DNA from: Oscillospiraceae bacterium
GTDB taxonomy: Bacteria; Bacillota; Clostridia; Oscillospirales; Ruminococcaceae
NCBI GenBank assembly: GCA_024404815.1
Contig: JAKSPL010000012.1
Span: 1-51,619, forward strand
DNA: 51,619 nt
Direction: 5' to 3'
In this document: one piece after another, positions 2,552 through 51,619 of the stretch
Layout: every line of letters starts with the position of its first letter
Position numbering within the stretch: the stretch's first letter is position 1
Program-made: the position numbers and the translations under genes
Notes under the pieces: model-generated
What the model was told of the DNA's origin: nothing
What the model saw: the letters and a program-made list of their open reading frames with translations, nothing else
Database searches by the model: none

Positions 2552-4447
2552 ATGAAACATCATCGCGTTTTACCGATTTCCCTTGCGGCGATTCTAGCGT
2601 TCAGTACAAGCAGTGTACTGTCGGACGGCGCATTGCAGAAAGCACCGATCGCCGCTGCCGCAGACGACACAGGCGATGACTGGCTCCACGCAAAGGGAAG
2701 CCGTCTTTATGACAAAAACGGCAATGAAGTCTGGCTGACGGGTGCCAACTGGTTCGGTATGAACTGTACCGAAAACTTCCCGCACGGCCTTTGGAGCGCG
2801 GATGTCGATGTCCTGCTCTCCTCTGTTGCAGACCACGGCATCAACATCATCCGCTTCCCTGTTTCCACAGAGCTTCTGCTCTCATGGATGAACGGAAAGC
2901 CGTACATGACCACAGGTCTGAACCCGAAAAACACCGATGCCTACAAATTCAACCCCGACTTCTGCCACGAGGACGGCTCGGAAATGAACAGTCTGGAAAT
3001 TTTCGATGTCATTCTCCAGAAGTGCAAGAAGTACGGCATCAAGGCTCTGGTCGATGTCCACAGCCCTGCATCCCATAACTCGGGACATAACTACAATCTC
3101 TGGTACTATGAACCGACCGCTGACGACTGCGCAGGCATGGCGACCATCGCAGAAGCCGCAGGCGACAAGGGCGCAGAGGTCACATGGGATGACTGGATTG
3201 ACAGCCTGACATGGCTCGCAAAGCGTTACGCAAACGACGATACGCTCATCGCCTACGACCTCAAAAATGAGCCGCACGGCAAGCGCGGATATTCAGGCAC
3301 GACCTGTCCCGACAGCGTTGCACGCTGGGACGACACCGAGAAGAAGAACAACTGGAAGTATTCCGCAGAGCAATGCGCAAACTCCATTCTCAAAGTCAAC
3401 CCGAATGCCCTGATCCTCATTGAGGGCATCGAGCAGTCGCCGATCACCGAAAAGGGTTACACCTTCGATACGCCCGACAAGTTCCAGCCGCAGCCCGGCG
3501 AGGAAACATGGTACGGCGCATGGTGGGGCGGCAACCTCCGCGGTGTCAGAAACTATCCTGTCAAGCCAACCAGCGGCACAAGTCAGATCGTCTACTCACC
3601 GCACGATTACGGCCCGTCTGTCTATGCACAGACCTGGTTCAACAAGGATTTCACCACGCAGACGCTCCTCGATGACTACTGGTACGATACCTGGGCATAT
3701 GTCAATGCCGAGGACATCGCACCGCTTCTGATCGGTGAGTGGGGCGGTCATATGGACGGCGGCAAGAACCAGAAATGGATGGAACTGCTCCGCGACTACA
3801 TGATCGCGCACCATATCAACCACACATTCTGGTGTCTGAACCCGAACTCGGGCGACACAGGCGGTCTGCTCAACGCGACCTTCTCCGAATGGGACGATGA
3901 AAAATACGCGCTGTTCGAGAAATCGCTCTGGCAGACATCTTCGTCCGGTAAGTACATCAGTCTTGACCACCAGACCGCACTCGGCAAGAACGGTATCTCC
4001 CTGTCGGAATTCTATTCGAAATATGCAAATTCTGAGGGCAGTAACCTGGACGGCGGTACGAAATCGACCGGCGGCACAGGCGATACCCAGCCGACTACTT
4101 CTTCTACCACCACAACTACTACAACCACTACCACGACGACGACCACTACCACAACAACCTCGACAACGACAACATCCACCACAACAAGCACAAGTTCGTC
4201 CGACAGCAGTGAGCCGGGCAGCGTTGTGACAATGTACGGCGATGCAAACTGCGACAACACCGTAGATATTTCCGATGTCATTCTCATTGCGAGAATCGCG
4301 GCGGAGGACACGCAGGTTTCGCTCACATCACAGGGCAAGCTCAATGCGGATGTGGACGGAAAGAAGGGTATCACCGCAGGCGATGCAAAGATGATCCTTC
4401 AGTATATCGCACAGCTGATTCCCACGCTTGATCCGCAGCCGGACTGA
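2552..4447 (+). CDS. Secreted GH5 endoglucanase with C-terminal dockerin
   Basis: 631 residues. A signal peptide (Lys/His/Arg start, hydrophobic core, cut after the alanines near residue 35) exports it. Residues about 45-470 are a glycoside hydrolase family 5 domain, probably subfamily 1 judging from GANWFGMNC and HGLWS near the start. It should cut internal beta-1,4 bonds of cellulose. The acid/base is E240 in DLKNEPHG and the nucleophile E396 in IGEWGGHMDGG; both are intact. A Thr/Ser linker (about 515-555) leads to a type I dockerin (about 561-625) with two calcium loops, DANCDNTVDISD and ADVDGKKGITAGD, followed by helices. The dockerin should plug into a cohesin on a scaffoldin. A paralogue follows. 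The start has a GAGGGGG site upstream. Confidence 0.93.
   Translation: MKHHRVLPISLAAILAFSTSSVLSDGALQKAPIAAAADDTGDDWLHAKGSRLYDKNGNEVWLTGANWFGMNCTENFPHGLWSADVDVLLSSVADHGINIIRFPVSTELLLSWMNGKPYMTTGLNPKNTDAYKFNPDFCHEDGSEMNSLEIFDVILQKCKKYGIKALVDVHSPASHNSGHNYNLWYYEPTADDCAGMATIAEAAGDKGAEVTWDDWIDSLTWLAKRYANDDTLIAYDLKNEPHGKRGYSGTTCPDSVARWDDTEKKNNWKYSAEQCANSILKVNPNALILIEGIEQSPITEKGYTFDTPDKFQPQPGEETWYGAWWGGNLRGVRNYPVKPTSGTSQIVYSPHDYGPSVYAQTWFNKDFTTQTLLDDYWYDTWAYVNAEDIAPLLIGEWGGHMDGGKNQKWMELLRDYMIAHHINHTFWCLNPNSGDTGGLLNATFSEWDDEKYALFEKSLWQTSSSGKYISLDHQTALGKNGISLSEFYSKYANSEGSNLDGGTKSTGGTGDTQPTTSSTTTTTTTTTTTTTTTTTTSTTTTSTTTSTSSSDSSEPGSVVTMYGDANCDNTVDISDVILIARIAAEDTQVSLTSQGKLNADVDGKKGITAGDAKMILQYIAQLIPTLDPQPD
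4093..4200 (+). repeat. ACN-codon (poly-Thr) linker tract of first cellulase
   Basis: About 36 codons are almost only ACA, ACC and ACT, with a few Ser codons, encoding the flexible linker between catalytic domain and dockerin. The degenerate triplet array resembles those at 6172-6313 and 42432-42510 and could change length by slippage or recombination. Confidence 0.85.
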
Positions 4448-4668: not shown

Positions 4669-6558
4669 ATGAAAAAAGCAAAGCGTGTATTGTCGCTCGG
4701 TTTGGCGGCAATCCTCGCGGTCAGCTCCTCAAGTATGCTGACAAGCGACATTCTTCCGAGTGTGGATACCGTCGCCGCAGCCGCAGATGACTGCAATGAC
4801 GACTGGCTCCACGCACAAGGCAGCCGCCTTTATGACAAAGACGGCAACGAAGTCTGGCTGACAGGTGCAAACTGGTTCGGTCTGAACTGTAACGAAGCCG
4901 TTCCGCACTACCTCTGGAGCGCGGATATGGACGATGTTCTCCAGCAGATCGCTGACCGCGGCATCAACATCATCCGCTTCCCGATCTCCACGGAACTCAT
5001 TGTATCGTGGATGAACGGCAAGCCGAATCCCGTCAACAGTTTCTCCGCAAACAACGACCCGTCATTCACCATCAATCCCGACTGCGTCGAGGAGGACGGC
5101 AAAACGCTGAAAAACTCCATGGAAATCTTCGACATCATGATGGGCAAGCTCAAAAAGTACGGTCTGAAAGCGTTTATCGACATTCACAGCCCGCACACAG
5201 ACAACTCAGGCCATAACTACAACCTCTGGTACGGCAAAGCAGGCGTTACCACAAAGGTCTGGATCGACAGCCTCGTATGGCTCGCGGACAAGTACAAGAA
5301 CGATGACACCCTGCTCGCCTATGACCTGAAAAACGAGCCGCACGGCAAAGGTCAGGAAGGCACAGAGGCTGCAAAATGGGACGGCACAACAGACGAGAAC
5401 AACTGGGCATATGCCGCAACGCAGTGTGCAGATGCGATTCTCGATGTCAACCCGAACGCGCTGATTCTCATTGAGGGCGTTGAACAGTCCATGAGCGGTG
5501 CAATGGAGGGCGACTACTGGGGTATGCCTGACCGCCGCGACAACTCCCCGTACATCTGCGCATGGTGGGGCGGCAACTTCCGCGGTGCAAGAGAATATCC
5601 CATCAAACCGAAGCACGGCACTTCTCAGATCGTCTACTCTCCGCACGACTACGGCCCGTCCGTATATGCACAGACTTGGTTCGATAAGAACTTCACCGAA
5701 GAAACGCTCCTCAAGGACTACTGGTACGACACCTGGGCATATATCAATGCTGAGGATATCGCACCCGAACTGATCGGCGAATGGGGCGGTCACATGGACG
5801 GCGGCGACAACCAGAAATGGATGACGCTCCTGCGCGACTACATGATCAAGCACCACATCAACCACACGTTCTGGTGTCTGAACACCAACTCCGGCGACAC
5901 AGGCGGACTTTGGGATTCGCTCCAGTTCATGCAGGGTTCTGGCACATCTATCGTCTGGAATGAGTCGAAGTACAAGCTGTTCGAAGAAGCACTCTGGCAG
6001 ACCTCGTCCAGCGGCAAATACATCGGTCTGGACCACCAGACAGCACTCGGCAAGAACGGTATTTCGCTGTCGGAATTCTATTCGAAGTATGCAAGTTCCG
6101 AGGGCAGTAATCTGGACGGCGGCACGAAGTCGAACGGCGGCACAGGCAACAAACAGGATCCGCAGAGCGGTTCGACATCGACATCTACCACTACAACTAC
6201 AACAACGACGACTACAACAACTACTACGACCACTACCACAACAACTACTACAACGACAACCACGACTACAACAACTACTACTTCCACAACGACCACCAGC
6301 ACAACGCCCACGAGCAGTGACGATAATCGGTCTGAGAGCAACGTCCTCTACGGCGATGCAAACTGCGACGATACTGTGGACATCTCCGACGTTATTCTCG
6401 TTTCGAGAATCGCGGCAGAGGACACTCAGGTATCCCTCACAGCGCAGGGCAAGGTCAACGCAGATGTTGACGGCAAGAATGGCATTTCCGGCGGCGATGC
6501 AAAAATGATTCTCCAGTACATCGCAAAAATCGTCGATACCCTCAATCCGAACGGCTAA
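4669..6558 (+). CDS. Second secreted GH5 endoglucanase with dockerin (tandem paralogue)
   Basis: 629 residues, with the same architecture as the gene upstream: signal peptide starting MKKAKRVLSLGLAAILA, GH5 domain (about 45-470), poly-Thr linker (about 502-550) and type I dockerin (about 559-624). Acid/base E223 (DLKNEPHG) and nucleophile E371 (IGEWGGHMDGG) are present. Compared with its neighbour it lacks a loop of about 20 residues before TWLAKRY/VWLADKY and carries an extra segment (LQFMQGSGTSIV) late in the domain. These differences sit in surface loops, so substrate fit may differ. The near-identical dockerins suggest the same cohesin partner. The ribosome site is AAGGGGG. The pair looks like an old tandem duplication, kept and diverged. 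Confidence 0.93.
   Translation: MKKAKRVLSLGLAAILAVSSSSMLTSDILPSVDTVAAAADDCNDDWLHAQGSRLYDKDGNEVWLTGANWFGLNCNEAVPHYLWSADMDDVLQQIADRGINIIRFPISTELIVSWMNGKPNPVNSFSANNDPSFTINPDCVEEDGKTLKNSMEIFDIMMGKLKKYGLKAFIDIHSPHTDNSGHNYNLWYGKAGVTTKVWIDSLVWLADKYKNDDTLLAYDLKNEPHGKGQEGTEAAKWDGTTDENNWAYAATQCADAILDVNPNALILIEGVEQSMSGAMEGDYWGMPDRRDNSPYICAWWGGNFRGAREYPIKPKHGTSQIVYSPHDYGPSVYAQTWFDKNFTEETLLKDYWYDTWAYINAEDIAPELIGEWGGHMDGGDNQKWMTLLRDYMIKHHINHTFWCLNTNSGDTGGLWDSLQFMQGSGTSIVWNESKYKLFEEALWQTSSSGKYIGLDHQTALGKNGISLSEFYSKYASSEGSNLDGGTKSNGGTGNKQDPQSGSTSTSTTTTTTTTTTTTTTTTTTTTTTTTTTTTTTTTSTTTTSTTPTSSDDNRSESNVLYGDANCDDTVDISDVILVSRIAAEDTQVSLTAQGKVNADVDGKNGISGGDAKMILQYIAKIVDTLNPNG
6172..6313 (+). repeat. ACN-codon (poly-Thr) linker tract of second cellulase
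   Basis: About 47 codons, nearly all threonine, longer than the tract in the first cellulase. The array of ACA/ACC/ACT triplets is prone to length change. The antisense reading gives poly-valine, which is not a gene. Confidence 0.85.
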
Positions 6559-24229: not shown

Positions 24230-24262
24230 TTGGGGACTCTGTCCCTTTGGAATCCCATTTTG
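24230..24262 (+). repeat. Collapsed copy of repeat family A
   Basis: TTGGGGAC-TCT-GTCCC runs directly into TTTGGAATCCCATTTT. This equals the left arm of the first hairpin of family A joined to the right arm of its second hairpin, as if the part between had been deleted. It lies in the walJ leader, on the opposite strand to the genes. Confidence 0.7.
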
Positions 24263-27672: not shown

Positions 27673-27816
27673 GCATATGAACACGCGAAAAGGGCGAAGA
27701 ACCAAATCTCCGCCCTTTCTATATAATCGTTCGTGCTGAAATGGGATTTCAAAGGGACAATGTCCCTTTGGTGGGGTTTGGGGCGAAGCCCCAATATCAA
27801 TCCATCGGAGATACCG
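27673..27816 (-). repeat. Repeat family A, full copy after aspS
   Basis: Read on the minus strand it starts 9 nt after the aspS stop with GGTATCTCCGATGGATTGA. Then come hairpin 1 (TTGGGGC/GCCCCAA), hairpin 2 (CAAAGGGAC/GTCCCTTTG), the segment AATCCCATTTCAGCACGAA, and hairpin 3 (AAGGGCGGAG with CTTCGCCCTT, then TTTT). It aligns along its whole length with 30624-30778, with differences mainly in loops and paired stem positions. Hairpin 3 at 27687-27719 is the probable aspS terminator. Confidence 0.9.
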
Positions 27817-27824
27817 CAATCCCC

Positions 27825-29564
27825 TCACGCATCCTCACGGATCTGGATATTTGCCTCGCGGAGCTGCAATTCGGTGACCTGTGACGGTGCGCCGAGCAGC
27901 AGATCCTGTGCATTGCCGTTGAGCGGGAACGCGATGACGTTACGAATCGTTTCCGTATCAGCCAGCAGCATGATCATACGGTCGATACCGGGAGCCATGC
28001 CTGCGTGAGGCGGTGCGCCGTACTGGAATGCCGTATAGAGTGCGGAGAATCTTGCAGCAAGTTCTTCCTCAGAATAGCCTGCGAGCGAGAATGCCTTCTT
28101 CATGATCTCAACATCGTGGTTACGGACTGCACCAGAAGCCAGCTCGATGCCGTTGCAGACGAGGTCATACTGGTAAGCGAGAATTTCCAGCGGATCCTGA
28201 TTGTTCAGCGCGTCCAGACCGCCCTGCGGCATAGAGAACGGGTTGTGGGTAAAGTCGAGTTTGTGCGATTCTTCGTTGATCTCGTACATCGGGAAATCAA
28301 CAACAAAGCAGAAACGGAACGCATCCTTTTCGATGAGTTCGAGCGTTTCGCCCAGCCATGTGCGGATCTGACCTGCATAGATATCGACCGTGCGCGGTGC
28401 ATCGGAGATGAAGAATACAGTTTCGCCCTCTTTGATGCCTGTGATCTGACGAATCTCTGCACGCTGTTCATCGGAGAGGAATTTGTCGATCGGGCCCTTG
28501 AAAATATCGCCTGCGGCAGTCAGATAGCCCAAGCCCTTCATGCCGATAGAGGTTGCGAATTTCAGCGAGTTCTCGAAGAATTTCTTCGAGCATGCAGAAC
28601 AGTCAGCCACGATACCGCGGACAGGACGTCCCTTGAATGCCTTGAATTCGACATTTGCAAAGAAATCGGTCAGGTCGATGATCTCCAGCGGGTTGCGGAG
28701 GTCAGGCTTATCGGAACCGTATTTGAGCATTGCATCACGGTAGGTAATGCGCTCAAACGGTGCATCGGAGATCTTCTTGTCAGGTGCAAAGGTCTTGAAG
28801 GTATCGGAAATGACCTGTTCGCAGACAGCCAGAACCTCGTCCTGTGTTGCAAATGCCATTTCAAAGTCGAGCTGATAGAATTCTCCGGGGGAACGGTCCT
28901 GTCTTGCATCCTCATCGCGGAAGCAGGGAGCGACCTGATAGTACTTGTTGAAGCCCGATACCATCAAAAGCTGCTTGAACTGCTGCGGAGCCTGCGGCAG
29001 AGCGTAGAACTTGCCCTTGTGCTTGCGGCTCGGAACGAGGAAGTCACGCGCACCCTCAGGGGAAGATGCGGTCAGGATCGGTGTCTGAATATCGAGGAAT
29101 CCGAGATCCTCCATCTTTCTGCGGAGATGCGCGATGACCTTGGAACGCAGAATGATGTTCTCGTGTACCCACGGGTTGCGCAGGTCGAGATAACGGTACT
29201 TCAAGCGAACTTCCTCACGGGTTTCCATGGAATCCGCAGGAATGAACGGAAGCATGGACTTGCACGCGCCCAGCACCTGCATTTCGGTGACATGGACTTC
29301 GATCAGACCGGTTGCGAGCTTGGTGTTGACGGTCTCCTCGTCACGCTTGACGACTTCGCCTGTGACGGTGATAACGGTTTCTCTGCCGATGCCGTCTACC
29401 AGCGAACCGTCCTGAAAGACGACCTGTGTGATGCCTGTTTCGTCGCGCAGATCGAGGAAAATGACGCCGCCGTGGTCGCGGATGGTATCAACCCAGCCGG
29501 CGAGGGAAACGGTCTGTCCGATGTTCTCAACGCGCAGATCATTGCACATTACGGAACGATACAT
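27825..29564 (-). CDS. aspS: Aspartyl-tRNA synthetase
   Basis: 579 residues, class II synthetase of the bacterial type. The start ATG at 29564 follows AGGAGG at 8 nt. An N-terminal OB-fold anticodon domain (about 1-110), then the catalytic domain with motif 2 FRDEDARQDRSPGEF and motif 3 GAPPHAGMAPGIDRMIML near residue 530, and the GAD insertion domain (about 290-410) typical of bacterial AspRS. Motif 2 has SPGEFYQLDFE instead of the common QPEFTQID, a variant I associate with gut clostridia. Expression is under a T-box leader. A copy of repeat family A follows the stop and provides a terminator. Whether it also charges tRNA-Asn cannot be read from the sequence. Confidence 0.95.
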   Translation of the reverse strand: MYRSVMCNDLRVENIGQTVSLAGWVDTIRDHGGVIFLDLRDETGITQVVFQDGSLVDGIGRETVITVTGEVVKRDEETVNTKLATGLIEVHVTEMQVLGACKSMLPFIPADSMETREEVRLKYRYLDLRNPWVHENIILRSKVIAHLRRKMEDLGFLDIQTPILTASSPEGARDFLVPSRKHKGKFYALPQAPQQFKQLLMVSGFNKYYQVAPCFRDEDARQDRSPGEFYQLDFEMAFATQDEVLAVCEQVISDTFKTFAPDKKISDAPFERITYRDAMLKYGSDKPDLRNPLEIIDLTDFFANVEFKAFKGRPVRGIVADCSACSKKFFENSLKFATSIGMKGLGYLTAAGDIFKGPIDKFLSDEQRAEIRQITGIKEGETVFFISDAPRTVDIYAGQIRTWLGETLELIEKDAFRFCFVVDFPMYEINEESHKLDFTHNPFSMPQGGLDALNNQDPLEILAYQYDLVCNGIELASGAVRNHDVEIMKKAFSLAGYSEEELAARFSALYTAFQYGAPPHAGMAPGIDRMIMLLADTETIRNVIAFPLNGNAQDLLLGAPSQVTELQLREANIQIREDA

Positions 29565-29582
29565 AGATGTTACCTCCTGTAA

Positions 29583-29890
29583 AAAAATGGGATAAAATGG
29601 AAACGGAAAAAGAAAAACGCCCCAAAGCAGTCCGCTGCAATACAGCGAACAGCTTCGGGACGAGCGTTTTTTGAAGAACAACCCGCGGTGCCACCCGAAT
29701 TAACAGCGTCCGTTTGACGGGATACTGTTCTCTTTCATATGGGGCATTTTCGGTGCTCTGCCGCACGGCAGAAGCCCTGTACGAGAAACATACAGGCGAG
29801 TGTTGCTGAATCTGCTACTCTCCGCGGCGGTGCTTTCAGCCGATGACACCAGCCTCTCTGATCGGATTTCCATGCAGAACAGGTCTCTGC
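29583..29890 (-). promoter_or_regulatory. T-box riboswitch of aspS
   Basis: Leader of about 300 nt. On the minus strand the T-box core TGGCACCGCGG is at 29693-29683. The terminator stem-loop at 29672-29613 pairs AACGC, CCC, AAGC and CGCTG with their complements and ends in TTTTTC. Upstream, the stem I signatures AGAGAGG and GCTGAAAGCACC are visible around 29850-29820. Uncharged tRNA should stabilise the antiterminator. I could not fix the specifier codon; a GAT in the stem I 3' side is one candidate. Confidence 0.92.
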
Positions 29891-30083: not shown

Positions 30084-30623
30084 ATGGAACTGAAAGGCTC
30101 TAAAACCGAAGCGAATCTGCAGGCGGCTTTCGCAGGCGAATCGCAGGCAAGAAACAAGTACACTTATTTTGCATCGAAAGCCCGCAAAGAGGGCTATGTC
30201 CAGATTGCAGAGATCTTCGAAGAAACTGCAAACAACGAAAAAGAACACGCAAAAATCTGGTTCAAGGAATTGCACGGCGGCGAAGTGCCTGACACCATCG
30301 CAAACCTGAATGCTGCGGCAGACGGCGAGAACTTTGAGTGGACAGATATGTATAAGGAATTCGCCGCAACAGCACGCGAGGAGGGTTTTACTCGTATCGC
30401 AGCACTGTTCGAACTGGTCGGCAACATCGAAAAAACACACGAGGAACGCTACCGCAAGCTGCTCGCAAATGTCGAGGGCGGACTAGTGTTCTCGCGTGAC
30501 GGCGACATGATCTGGGAATGCAGCAACTGCGGACATATTGTTGTCGGCAAGAACGCGCCGTCCGTATGCCCTGTCTGTGCGCATCCGCAGGCATATTTCA
30601 AACTGCGTGCGGAGAACTATTAA
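30084..30623 (+). CDS. Rubrerythrin
   Basis: 179 residues from the ATG at 30084, 11 nt after GGAGG; an ATG six codons upstream is part of that ribosome site. The N-terminal ferritin-like four-helix domain carries the diiron Glu/His set ([38 protein letters not shown]). The C-terminal rubredoxin-like domain has two CxxC pairs (CSNCG, CPVC) for one iron. It reduces hydrogen peroxide with electrons from NADH via rubredoxin-type carriers, a standard oxidative-stress defence of anaerobes. Monocistronic with a strong promoter; a repeat family A copy follows the stop. Confidence 0.95.
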
Positions 30624-30778
30624 GCTGTATCTCCGATGAATTGATATTGGGGACGCTGTCCCCAAACCCCTGCCAAAGGGACATTGTCCCTTTGGAATCC
30701 CATTTTAGCACGAATGTTAGCATGATAAGGGCGGAGATTCGGTTCTCCGCCCTTTTTTCGTGTGGACACGCGAAGCGC
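30624..30778 (+). repeat. Repeat family A, full copy after rubrerythrin
   Basis: It starts at the stop codon with GCTGTATCTCCGATGAATTG. Hairpin 1 is TTGGGGAC/GTCCCCAA, hairpin 2 CCAAAGGGAC/GTCCCTTTGG, then AATCCCATTTTAGCACGAA, hairpin 3 and ACACGCGAAGCGC. It aligns along its length with 27673-27816 (minus strand). Hairpin arms differ between copies but stay complementary. Confidence 0.92.
30727..30760 (+). terminator. Terminator module of the family A repeat (rubrerythrin)
   Basis: AAGGGCGGAGA pairs with TCTCCGCCCTT and TTTTTT-like sequence follows. It is hairpin 3 of the repeat and the only obvious terminator for the rubrerythrin gene. Confidence 0.88.
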
Positions 30779-30840: not shown

Positions 30841-30972
30841 CCGCTGACCGCAGTCAGCGGAATCCCTTTCTCCTACCAAAAGATCAGGAGGGGGTATGGG
30901 GGAACCCTATCAAGGGGTTCCCCCATACTTTTTCGATAGACTGAGGGCGGAGATTGCGTTCTCCGCCCTTTC
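30841..30972 (+). other. Run of three further hairpins before the PARG-like gene
   Basis: CCGCTGAC/GTCAGCGG (30841-30860); GTATGGGGGAACCC with GGGTTCCCCCATAC (about 30894-30928) followed by TTTTTC, a terminator-like unit; and AGGGCGGAGA/TCTCCGCCCT (30944-30970), the same stem as hairpin 3 of family A. The 370 bp after rubrerythrin are almost wholly palindromic and contain no gene. Confidence 0.8.
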
Positions 30973-40375: not shown

Positions 40376-42736
40376 ATGAAGAATCCACGCTTTGCAAAGC
40401 GGCTCTGTATCTGTACCGCAGCAGTTATGGCATTGTCTGCGCTGACAGTCACAGCACCGCAGTCACCGCACGCATGGCTGTCCCTCGCATCCGTTTCCGC
40501 ATACAATGCCATCGGAAGCCCGGTCAGCCACAATTTCACAACACAGGGATTAAACGACAGCAATTTTGACATTTCAGGCAATCTCTCTACGGCAAAAGGC
40601 ACCATGACCTACAACGGTCAGACTCTGACACAATGCCTGAAAATGGAAACCGAAACGTCCATCCGCTTTGAAACAACTGTCGGCGGCACACTTTCACTCG
40701 CCATCAAGGACGGCGACACGGTCTATATCGATGAGGTGAAAACTGCAATCAGTACCAGCGGTATCACAACCGTTTCGCTCGGTGCAGGTGCTCACAGCAT
40801 CCGCAAAGGCAGCGGCACCTCAAACCTTTTCTACATCGACATACAGACAACAGGCGGCTCGGTCGGCACAACTACCACAAGCACCACGACACAGACCTCC
40901 GCGACAACAATGAACACATGGAACGGCGGTGATTCCGCATCTGTGGGCGACATTAAACTGGTAACCGCAGGCGGCTGGAACGAAATGCTGTTTGCCGTAC
41001 TGTCGGGTGTCAGCGATTCACAGATCACAGGCGTGTCGTACAGCGGCGCGGCAAACGGCACACTCACAGGTGAAGATTTGCAGTACCTTGTCCGCGATAC
41101 CGACAAGGGTGCAAGAATCGACATTCCCGGTCTGCCGTCAGGAACATACACGCTCTCGGTCGCAACCGCAAAAGGCAATGTGTCCGTAGACGGCATTTCT
41201 GTCGGCGCACAGGACCGCTCAGGCTATGCCCATTTCAACTATACCGCAGGTGTCGGCGCATACAATGACAACGGTACGCTGAAAACCGATGCAGTCATCC
41301 TTTATGTCACAAACGACAATAAAAACACCGTTACGCTGAAATCCAAAGACGGCACGACTGTCACGGGCATCGGCAATATCTTAAACTCGGTCGGACAGGA
41401 TGCAGGCGGCGGTAAAACATCAGGCGGCGGCACCGCCAACTCCAACGCAGGCATCATCAAGAAAATCGCGCAGGACGGCACACCGCTCGTCATCCGTATT
41501 CTCGGCAATGTCACCGCGCCAAACGGTCTGACTGCCTACGATTCTGTCGATTACGGCGGTTCGGTCGGCGATAACGGCTTTATGGCACGCATCAGATCGG
41601 GCAAGGACATCACCATTGAGGGCATCGGTTCGGATGCGGTCATGAACGGCTGGGGTATCCATTTCATCGCGGAATCCTCCGGCAAGGATTTCGGCAAAAG
41701 CTTTGAGGTCCGCAACCTGAAATTCCGCAATGTTCCTGAGGACTGCATCGGCATGGAAGGTGTACAGAGCGGCACCGAACTGACTGCCCCCGTCGAACGC
41801 TGCTGGGTCCACAACAACGAATTCTACAAGCCGACCATCGCAAATCCTGCGGAATCGGACAAGGACGGCGGCGACGGCGCGTGCGATTTCAAGCGCGGTA
41901 TGTACTTCACCAACAGCTACAACTACTACGAGGGCTACCACAAGACCAACCTCGTCGGCGCTTCCGACAGCAATATGCAGTACCACATCACTTTCCACCA
42001 CAACTACTGGAAAGACTGCGAATCCCGCGGACCGCTCGCACGGCAGGCAAATATCCATATGTACAACAACGTATTCGAGGGGCAGACAAGCTACTGCCAG
42101 AATCCGCGCGCAGATGCGTATATTTTCTCAGAATATAACGTGTTCAACAACTGCAAGAATCCACAGCAGATCAAACAGGGCGCGATCAAGAGTTTCCACG
42201 ATGTTCTCAACAACTGCCGCGGCGATATGCAGGCAACGGTGGTGTCAAGCAAAACACAGCTTGTGTCCAGCGCGAACAAATACGGTGATTTCGACACAAA
42301 TGCTTCACTTTCCTATATTCCGTCGGGCAAGTATCTACTGCAAACCGACACCTCCAAGCTGCTGAGCGATTTTGCCGCAATGGGCGGAACGCTTGACGAC
42401 TCCGCTGTGTCGGGTACATTGAAAGCGGATGTGACTACTACCACAACAACTACGACCACTAATACAACGACTACCACTACCACCACAATGACTACCACAA
42501 CGGCCACGGAATCCGAACCGCAGACAAACATATACCTTGGCGATGCGACTTGCGATGAAGTGATCGACATTTCGGACGTGATCCTGATCTGCCGTGTCGG
42601 TGCGGAGGACAGCACCGCAGAAATTACGCTTCAGGGCAAGAGAAACGGCGACTGCAACCGCGACGGAAAGCTCAATGGTTCCGATGCGTCTTTGGTATTG
42701 CAGTTTATCGCACAGCTGATCTCGACATTTGAATAA
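40376..42736 (+). CDS. Secreted pectate lyase (PL1) with dockerin
   Basis: 786 residues. Signal peptide (MKNPRFAKRLC, hydrophobic core, cut near residue 40). Residues about 45-160 form a beta domain often found before pectate lyases; a short Thr linker and a second beta domain (about 180-310) follow. The parallel beta-helix catalytic domain spans about 320-650, with metal-site candidates in DGGDGACDFKRG and the catalytic Arg near 551 in ESRGPLARQANIHMYNN, the PL1 signature. It should cleave polygalacturonate by beta-elimination. A Thr linker (about 686-705) leads to a type I dockerin (about 718-782: LGDATCDEVIDISD, GDCNRDGKLNGSD), so it joins the cellulosome. RBS AGGAGG. The dockerin differs from those of the two GH5 enzymes. 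Confidence 0.93.
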   Translation: MKNPRFAKRLCICTAAVMALSALTVTAPQSPHAWLSLASVSAYNAIGSPVSHNFTTQGLNDSNFDISGNLSTAKGTMTYNGQTLTQCLKMETETSIRFETTVGGTLSLAIKDGDTVYIDEVKTAISTSGITTVSLGAGAHSIRKGSGTSNLFYIDIQTTGGSVGTTTTSTTTQTSATTMNTWNGGDSASVGDIKLVTAGGWNEMLFAVLSGVSDSQITGVSYSGAANGTLTGEDLQYLVRDTDKGARIDIPGLPSGTYTLSVATAKGNVSVDGISVGAQDRSGYAHFNYTAGVGAYNDNGTLKTDAVILYVTNDNKNTVTLKSKDGTTVTGIGNILNSVGQDAGGGKTSGGGTANSNAGIIKKIAQDGTPLVIRILGNVTAPNGLTAYDSVDYGGSVGDNGFMARIRSGKDITIEGIGSDAVMNGWGIHFIAESSGKDFGKSFEVRNLKFRNVPEDCIGMEGVQSGTELTAPVERCWVHNNEFYKPTIANPAESDKDGGDGACDFKRGMYFTNSYNYYEGYHKTNLVGASDSNMQYHITFHHNYWKDCESRGPLARQANIHMYNNVFEGQTSYCQNPRADAYIFSEYNVFNNCKNPQQIKQGAIKSFHDVLNNCRGDMQATVVSSKTQLVSSANKYGDFDTNASLSYIPSGKYLLQTDTSKLLSDFAAMGGTLDDSAVSGTLKADVTTTTTTTTTNTTTTTTTTMTTTTATESEPQTNIYLGDATCDEVIDISDVILICRVGAEDSTAEITLQGKRNGDCNRDGKLNGSDASLVLQFIAQLISTFE
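42432..42510 (+). repeat. ACN-codon linker tract of the pectate lyase
   Basis: About 26 codons, mostly ACA/ACC/ACT with single Asn, Met and Ala interruptions. Shorter and less pure than the tracts in the GH5 genes. Confidence 0.8.
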
Positions 42737-43946: not shown

Positions 43947-44052
43947 GTGCCTGCGGCGCATTGAGAATGGAGCTCCGCTCCAAACCTCGCCAAAGGGACA
44001 TTGTCCCTTTGGAATCCCATTTTGATAGTGGGTACACACGCGAAGCGCGAAA
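43947..44052 (+). repeat. Repeat family A copy between pheS and pheT, without terminator module
   Basis: It starts 2 nt after the pheS stop. Hairpin 1 here is TGGAGC/GCTCCA, hairpin 2 CCAAAGGGAC/GTCCCTTTGG; AATCCCATTTT and ACACACGCGAAGCGC follow. Between these last two, where the copies at 30624 and 27673 carry the GGGCGGAG terminator hairpin, this copy has only about a dozen bases. Loss of that module would let RNA polymerase continue into pheT. Confidence 0.9.
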
Positions 44053-51542: not shown

Positions 51543-51619
51543 TTGTATCTGCGATGCATTTATCATGGAGCTCCGCTCCAAACCTCGCCAAAGGGTATGA
51601 TATACCCTTTGGAATCCCA
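51543..51619 (+). repeat. Repeat family A copy after the sirtuin gene, cut by window end
   Basis: It starts TTGTATCTGCGATGCATTT. Hairpin 1 is TGGAGC/GCTCCA. Hairpin 2 here is CCAAAGGGTAT/ATACCCTTTGG, where other copies have GGGAC/GTCCC: both arms changed together. AATCCCA follows and the window ends. Confidence 0.9.

Follow-up and report, generated by a model that had tools for sequence, protein, structure and literature searches.

DDE transposases normally generate a short target duplication of fixed length. In reviews, the target duplications of the IS1182 family are given as 0–60 bp, so that long and variable duplications may partly be on record already. IS1272 and TnSha1, elements of this family in staphylococci, were described as inserting into stem-loops without primary sequence preference (Furi 2016 PMC4923244; Wan 2017 PMC5678879), and five of seven sequenced TnSha1 targets were confirmed terminators (Furi 2016 PMC4923244). 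In both papers, the stem-loop was reported as partly deleted or replaced, with no target duplication (PMC4923244, PMC5678879). In Wan 2017, some targets were also described as lacking inverted repeats, and stem-loop duplication was drawn as a possible branch of the model (Fig. 13, pathway b; PMC5678879). MITEPye1, which occurs with ISPye18 (IS1182 family) in Paracoccus yeei, was described as a 159-bp intergenic element with predicted long stem-loops; 4-bp flanking direct repeats and one to three copies per chromosome were given, and the passages on this element do not mention hairpin duplication (PMC11578231). SPRITE, BOX and RUP were described as repeats dispersed in Streptococcus pneumoniae, of which one is terminator-like, and nested insertions occur among the elements (PMC3049150, PMC10969869).

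The window analyzed here, i.e. the whole stretch of 51,619 nt, contains a dispersed repeat with several hairpins, family A. When compared with the described systems, this repeat is very likely a MITE family whose mover is, or once was, a DDE transposase of the IS1182 group, with insertion at stem-loops and duplication of these stem-loops. An IS1182-family transposase and stem-loop targets are common to family A and to IS1272 and TnSha1, whereas the hairpin was duplicated here and deleted or replaced there. Replacement of the IS1272 type, with the hairpin deleted and no duplication, was not the pattern of the present loci, which look like the duplication branch of the IS1272 model. Family A resembles MITEPye1 in small size, intergenic position, IS1182-type ends and folding, and differs by hairpin duplication in place of 4-bp repeats. 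Set beside SPRITE, BOX and RUP by descriptions only, it is similar in interspersion, a terminator-like member and nested insertion. To our knowledge, duplication of terminator hairpins has not been reported for these pneumococcal repeats. The original prediction knew no named element of this form; no Rfam family matched the window at gathering score and no paper on this repeat was found in a literature search, whereas the kind of element is a known one, since an IS1182-group MITE has the same ends, target and autonomous partner as the complete relatives.

The five copies originally placed in the window were all present on inspection of the sequence (Table 1). Positions 30624–30762 folded at −57 kcal/mol, whereas their shuffles averaged −35.5 (z = −5.8). 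The left motif of the main copy started directly after the stop codon of a rubrerythrin gene (30621–30623; gene assigned by Pfam), and in congeners the same motif came right after CAGNNTGTMGAWAAAG. The first base of the minus-strand copy was located 7 nt past the stop codon of the neighboring tRNA synthetase gene. The copy in the pheS–pheT gap lacked hairpin 3, the terminator-like stem of most copies in the own genome, a lack that would be expected if a terminator at this position were to block pheT. Hairpin 3 was also not seen in the sequence after the collapsed copy. Collapsed copies of this type recurred in the own genome (C25:149, C32:17062 and C33:6239) and at three further loci (L116, L156 and L157), and look as if they were deletions between shared arms.

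Table 1. Positions of family A copies, of the parts of the main copy and of adjoining features in the window
Feature	Position	Strand	Description
Collapsed copy	24230–24261	+	5′ arm of hairpin 1 fused to 3′ arm of hairpin 2
Copy	27681–27817	−	Hairpin 1 TTGGGGC/GCCCCAA, hairpin 2 and hairpin 3
Class II (D/K/N type) tRNA synthetase gene	27825–29681	−	Pfam
Main copy	30624–30760	+	
Copy	43947–44023	+	Hairpin 1 TGGAGC/GCTCCA, mirror ACCTCG; between pheS and pheT (genes by Pfam); without hairpin 3
Copy cut by window edge	51543–51619	+	Hairpin 2 AAAGGGTAT/ATACCCTTT; 3′ of Sir2-family gene (Pfam)
Left motif	30624–30646	+	GCTGTATCTCCGATGAATTGATA; matches the inner portion of the ends that bound complete elements in congeners
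Hairpin 1	30647–30665	+	TTGGGGAC-GCT-GTCCCCAA; from sequence and fold; covaries across copies
Mirror repeat	30658–30672	+	GTCCCC-AAA-CCCCTG; 3′ arm of hairpin 1 and its mirror image; candidate triplex third strand
Hairpin 2	30673–30695	+	CCAAAGGGAC-ATT-GTCCCTTTGG; from sequence, fold and stem comparison
Conserved segment	30696–30706	+	AATCCCATTTT; right border of 81-nt core; from alignment and covariance model search
Hairpin 3	30727–30758	+	Terminator-like stem of 11 pairs, then T run
End repeat	30928–30943	−	CAGTCTATCGAAAAAG; differs from the pattern at one position; right end of an element that extends to the left
Stem-loop adjoining the end repeat	30944–30969	+	AGGGCGGAGATTGCGTTCTCCGCCCT; 24 of 26 positions identical to the hairpin 3 stem-loop (30728–30753)

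The stem-loop beside the end repeat at 30928–30943 is possibly an old duplicated target inside a composite. A second repeat of the own genome, with the end CAGTCTGTCGAAAAAGTATGGGGGAACC in several variants, was observed at C31:12255, C59:21511, C49:7165 and window position 30943, each time adjoining a stem-loop; three of these four were located downstream of a family A copy, as a right end. In other own-genome copies (C18:18818, C25:15330, C27:16993, C31:11977 and C49:7018), the loop of hairpin 1 was swapped for larger branched hairpins, e.g. GAGTTTGCAAGCAAACTC within a GGGG/CCCC stem, and similar branched forms were present in L148 and L154.

The family was abundant outside the window. Of the two outcomes originally named as refuting the prediction, a lack of copies elsewhere in the genome and a lack of covariation once more copies are aligned, neither occurred. 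The own genome (1.97 Mb, 59 contigs, 84% complete) was matched by positions 30624–30778 in BLASTN at no fewer than 41 places at E < 1e-29, a lower bound with 40 of 125 candidates scored, and 41 copies spanning hairpin 2 were present in the own-genome stretches examined. BLASTN matches were obtained in 22 of 24 other genomes of the genus and in none of 16 genomes from other families of the order. Most of the congener matches listed stopped near query base 83. Hairpin 3 was present in own-genome copies and not in the congener copies inspected; the third hairpin predicted for some copies thus exists, but is the terminator-like stem of the own-genome form. For a covariance model of 81 positions, 12 copies of the same length were used, as a first MAFFT alignment had misplaced the short type of hairpin 1. 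With the best 150 candidates per genome, the model found the family in 29 of 30 genomes of the genus, with at least 146 matches in the richest. A class-wide scan, with the best 15 candidates per genome and stricter filters, matched at least six of 291 genomes, the own genome included (five of the 290 others). Multicopy relatives were found in three genomes of the class sample (G203, G250 and G295); the inspected loci kept hairpins 1 and 2, and the left motif was gone.

Complete copies in two congeners, G042 and G022, were inverted doublets bounded by CAGNNTGTMGAWAAAG, with a length of 204–256 bp in the nine elements that had an exact hairpin duplication. A complete element consists of end repeat, left motif, hairpin 1, mirror segment, hairpin 2 and a short spacer, followed by the same parts inverted, and one such element folded with z = −9. 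Near-identical multicopy sets were present in G042 and G008; in the latter, six near-identical left halves with the CAGNNTGTMGAWAAAG end each ran to a contig end. The CAGNNTGTMGAWAAAG pattern had 443 exact matches in the 30 genomes of the genus, against eight for the reversed pattern (summed rows). As in MITEs, the complete congener copies had inverted terminal repeats, of which the left one was missing in the window copies, the hairpin at the target was duplicated in nine congener elements, the ends were shared with an autonomous element, and no transposase gene was carried, since 204–256 bp is too short for a transposase of 499 residues. In G008, 172 exact end repeats were counted, many of those listed less than 250 nt from a contig start, and a large recent expansion seems to fragment this assembly.

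At contig ends of G042, an element with the same ends as the MITE contained a promoter-like stretch along with the beginning of a transposase gene. A complete insertion sequence in G007 (~1.64 kb, 499 residues, one mismatch in the right end) was flanked by an exact 28-bp stem-loop duplication. Its transposase scored 426 bits against NF033551 (IS1182; cut-off 270), which assigns it to the IS1182 family. Any IS1182 match was obtained in only 10 of 30 genomes of the genus, two of them above the cut-off, and a search of the own genome gave no IS1182 transposase at E ≤ 1e-10. The small number of matches in the genus is perhaps due to multicopy elements that break MAG contigs.

To examine the targets of the MITEs, 63 distinct end repeats were used whose flanks were long enough. 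Of these, 55 had a stem of ≥6 pairs no more than 6 nt away, compared with seven of 62 at a control position 100 nt further out; the other eight adjoined no stem. For 13 of the 63 end-repeat matches, from the nine elements mentioned above, the flanking hairpin recurred exactly (≥15 nt) beyond the other end of the element, with mismatches disallowed and some of the remaining 50 running into a contig end. At one locus in G022 (L144, 1774–2291), two MITEs stood in tandem, and copies of one terminator-like hairpin were present on both outer sides and in the gap between the two elements. MITE ends were also observed at older family copies: two of the 63 end repeats (L275 1287 and L276 1028) were located within their hairpin 2 or directly beside it. 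Hairpins of the family itself can accordingly be used as targets, a possible contribution to the mosaic arrays.

When close relatives of the transposase were examined, 80 loci were collected and 28 were dropped for short flanks. Among the 52 retained loci, 39 had flanking direct repeats of 19–39 bp forming a stem, which consisted of at least seven pairs in 38 of them, and 13 had no hairpin repeat. The best score in 120 random flank pairings was 13, with no stem of seven pairs or more. Hairpin targeting, reported for some IS1182 members, was therefore observed at 39 of 52 loci, with hosts that included Gemmiger, Clostridium, Butyrivibrio, Bacillus and Sporosarcina and were mostly Firmicutes. 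The position of the hairpin was measured at 38 of the 39 loci (L202 was dropped because its repeat has mismatches), and the hairpin was sought in the duplication extended by 15 nt of genomic sequence in both directions. The centers of hairpin and duplication were at most 1 nt apart in 37 of 38 loci and coincided in 30, compared with six of 36 control windows. The duplication in these related insertion sequences was thus variable in length and centered on the hairpin. Both feet of the hairpin were within 3 nt of the duplication edges in 24 of 38 loci in this wider context, so that the whole stem was not always duplicated. The lengths of duplication and hairpin were correlated at 0.49; the value of 0.92 with the hairpin sought inside the duplication is partly built in. 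Of the stem pairs outside the duplication, 89 of 107 were A–T, as if the duplication edges fall where the G+C-rich stem turns into A and T tails. Right flanks started with four T in 14 of 38 loci, and left flanks ended with three A in 16.

Comparison of empty sites in relatives had originally been proposed as a check for mobility, and filled and empty versions, which support mobility, were found at the one orthologous site compared, the 3′ end of one conserved gene. In G042, the stop codon was followed by a hairpin, the element, the same hairpin again and a T run, whereas in G010 it was followed by a single hairpin and the T run. In G004, a doublet was located between stop codon and terminator; G024 and G020 were empty and alike at and beyond the terminator, and the short spacer of their empty form was missing from G004. 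G019 was interrupted just past a hairpin; in G023 and G018, the sequence past this hairpin runs on unbroken. An end repeat came right after a hairpin in G005, as did a degenerate form of it in G043. The own genome had a family copy at this site, and G003 seems to hold a remnant. Transposition of the window copies themselves is inferred from these congeners.

These junctions suggest the following course of insertion. The transposase would direct insertion to the feet of stem-loops, most of which resemble intrinsic terminators of genes. As a DDE transposase, it would join the 3′ ends of the element to the target, and with the target extruded as a cruciform, both element ends would be joined to the two 5′ feet of the hairpin. 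Joints at both 5′ feet would cause repair to copy the stem-loop. The left copy would be parted from the downstream sequence, and the right copy would keep it, including the T run where present. A full terminator should remain behind the gene, which probably retains its stop signal after insertion. This would be, apparently, a tidy strategy for a parasite, with the terminator used as landing site, copied, and the gene end left working. The variable hairpin-centered duplication of 19–39 bp at 39 loci makes the joining of cruciform 5′ feet directly testable. The same reading would account for a class of dense hairpin repeats in these gut bacteria and supplies an annotation rule.

The pairing of the arms was compared in 105 distinct aligned copies, obtained from 136 matches with 96 loci as the source. 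Among perfect stems, hairpin 2 had at least five outer types (CC/GG, CTT/AAG, CGT/ACG, CCC/GGG and CTC/GAG) and at least six inner types (GAC/GTC, GAT/ATC, GGT/ACC, GCT/AGC, GTC/GAC and GGC/GCC). A perfect stem of seven or more pairs was present in 97 of the 105 copies, and some of these stems were hairpin 1. The claim that both arms change together with pairing preserved therefore holds across these copies, but within the own genome the changes in hairpin 2 were mostly one-sided. There, 31 of 41 copies had one of two intact forms, and the other 10 had nine one-sided changes and one loop insertion; a third paired form, GGGTAT/ATACCC, was observed in the copy at 51543 and at C7:13570. Compensation thus separates subfamilies and not single resident copies. 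The left end, predicted as a shared sequence, is present as a motif that is itself structured: ATC-TCC-GAT-GGA varied in interleaved complementary triplets. In 78 of the 105 copies, picked by two fixed motif letters so that complementarity was slightly favored, triplets 1 and 3 were complementary in 73 (permutation maximum 47) and triplets 2 and 4 in 61 (permutation maximum 56), both uncorrected for relatedness.

Most copies were positioned behind genes. Among the 34 of 41 own-genome copies with enough flank, an open frame of at least 100 codons ended 11–63 nt before hairpin 1 on the same strand in 26, compared with four and four in two controls. In other genomes, an open frame in sense orientation ended no more than 150 nt upstream of 67 of 99 distinct copies, compared with 19 of 97 in the control. 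Such sense orientation 3′ of genes would fit a family of regulatory 3′-UTR RNAs of the host (terminator, mRNA stabilizer or attenuator) that was spread by recombination and selected for RNA structure, the mobile form being a side branch; targeting of terminators would account for the same position without regulation. The covarying stems would suit such RNAs as well, but hairpin 2 of the resident copies changed mostly without compensation. The terminator-like stem with TTTT after hairpin 2 in 38 of 41 own-genome copies (simple rule), with none after the pheS–pheT copy, is a further point in its favor. Since complete mobile copies have end repeats and duplicated hairpins, and near-identical multicopy sets occur in G042 and G008, a host RNA family seems rather unlikely as the origin.

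Insertion by an IS1182-group transposase would make the own-genome copies older descendants. The own-genome copies inspected were in sense orientation, from a few up to some tens of nucleotides past stop codons, and had no end repeat on the left; most own-genome copies were without the end repeats, and exact end repeats numbered only 11 in this genome. These copies may now serve as 3′-UTR or terminator modules. In other genomes, copies without the end were concentrated 0–7 nt past the stop codon, a pile-up not explained by erosion alone; the left hairpin, being redundant, could conceivably have been deleted together with the end. At a junction past a stop codon in G004 (L300), the gene end CAGATGTAA was observed to resemble the MITE end CAGNCTGTAGA. 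Both the end and the left hairpin could have been lost at this locus through a deletion between short homologies.

REP or REPIN-like elements moved by a Y1 (RAYT) transposase, i.e. small inverted intergenic hairpin doublets, share with family A the inverted doublets of hairpin units, the hairpins, the intergenic position and the high copy number. However, Y1_Tnp (PF01797) was found in two of the 17 genomes of the genus searched and not in the own genome, and the IS1182-type ends and the duplications contradict this origin. The target hairpins were duplicated here, unlike in RAYT elements, for which we know of no target duplication. In G001, the sole Y1 gene (C240:262–618) was located 226 nt from a family copy on the other strand (C240:844–922), but this copy comes after the end of another reading frame on that other strand. 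With no Y1 gene in 15 of the 17 genomes, RAYT was rejected as the mover, and such an origin is highly improbable. That ordinary intrinsic terminators became alike by convergence is scarcely credible, for hairpin 3 and its T run would fit, but the 81-nt core was kept in 29 of 30 genomes with its non-terminator parts, the complete element folded far below its shuffles, and unpaired sequence and element borders were shared.

As a separate observation, a single-contig genome of the order (G032) carried four equal-scoring Y1 genes (L078, L083, L085 and L087) and no family A match.

The segment after hairpin 1 was compared with the 3′ arm in the 89 of 105 distinct copies in which hairpin 1 could be parsed. 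It was a perfect mirror of the arm in 59, against a permutation mean of 19 and a maximum of 30 in 2000 (uncorrected for relatedness), a direct repeat in one and a reverse complement in none. The arm/mirror pairs were GTCCCC/CCCCTG, GCCCC/CCCCG, GCCCTC/CTCCCG, GTCTCC/CCTCTG, GCTCC/CCTCG and GTCCTC/CTCCTG. An arm start of GT or GC tracked a mirror end of CTG or CCG (counts 38, 2, 8 and 27; Fisher p = 4e-11, uncorrected for relatedness). The mirror failed in 30 of 89 copies, including all three GCCTCC arms, 10 of 21 GCCCC arms and four of seven GCCCCC arms. The arm GCCCTC with the mirror CTCCCG was found in this genus and also, at L119, in a genome from a different family; L117, L118 and L123 had further A-interrupted arms, each with a mirror of its own. 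The other strand of this segment is a purine mirror repeat. At neutral pH, this strand could form an intramolecular triplex of the purine motif by folding back, and a triplex would explain the covarying mirror. The inner hairpins of the MITE might accordingly be kept as structure-only modules including a third strand, a tentative proposal that is open to considerable doubt. The mirror covariation is a separate and checkable hint of a selected triplex. If true, a conserved triplex in a bacterial transposon would be a new kind of part, perhaps recognized during transposition or used as a landing pad for nested insertion.

Elsewhere in the window, two neighboring GH5 cellulase genes (2552–4447 and 4669–6558) were 74–84% alike over long blocks and contained ACN-rich repeats; their similarity indicates a tandem duplication. 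A similar stretch was present at the C-terminal end of a CBM77/pectate lyase gene (40376–42736).
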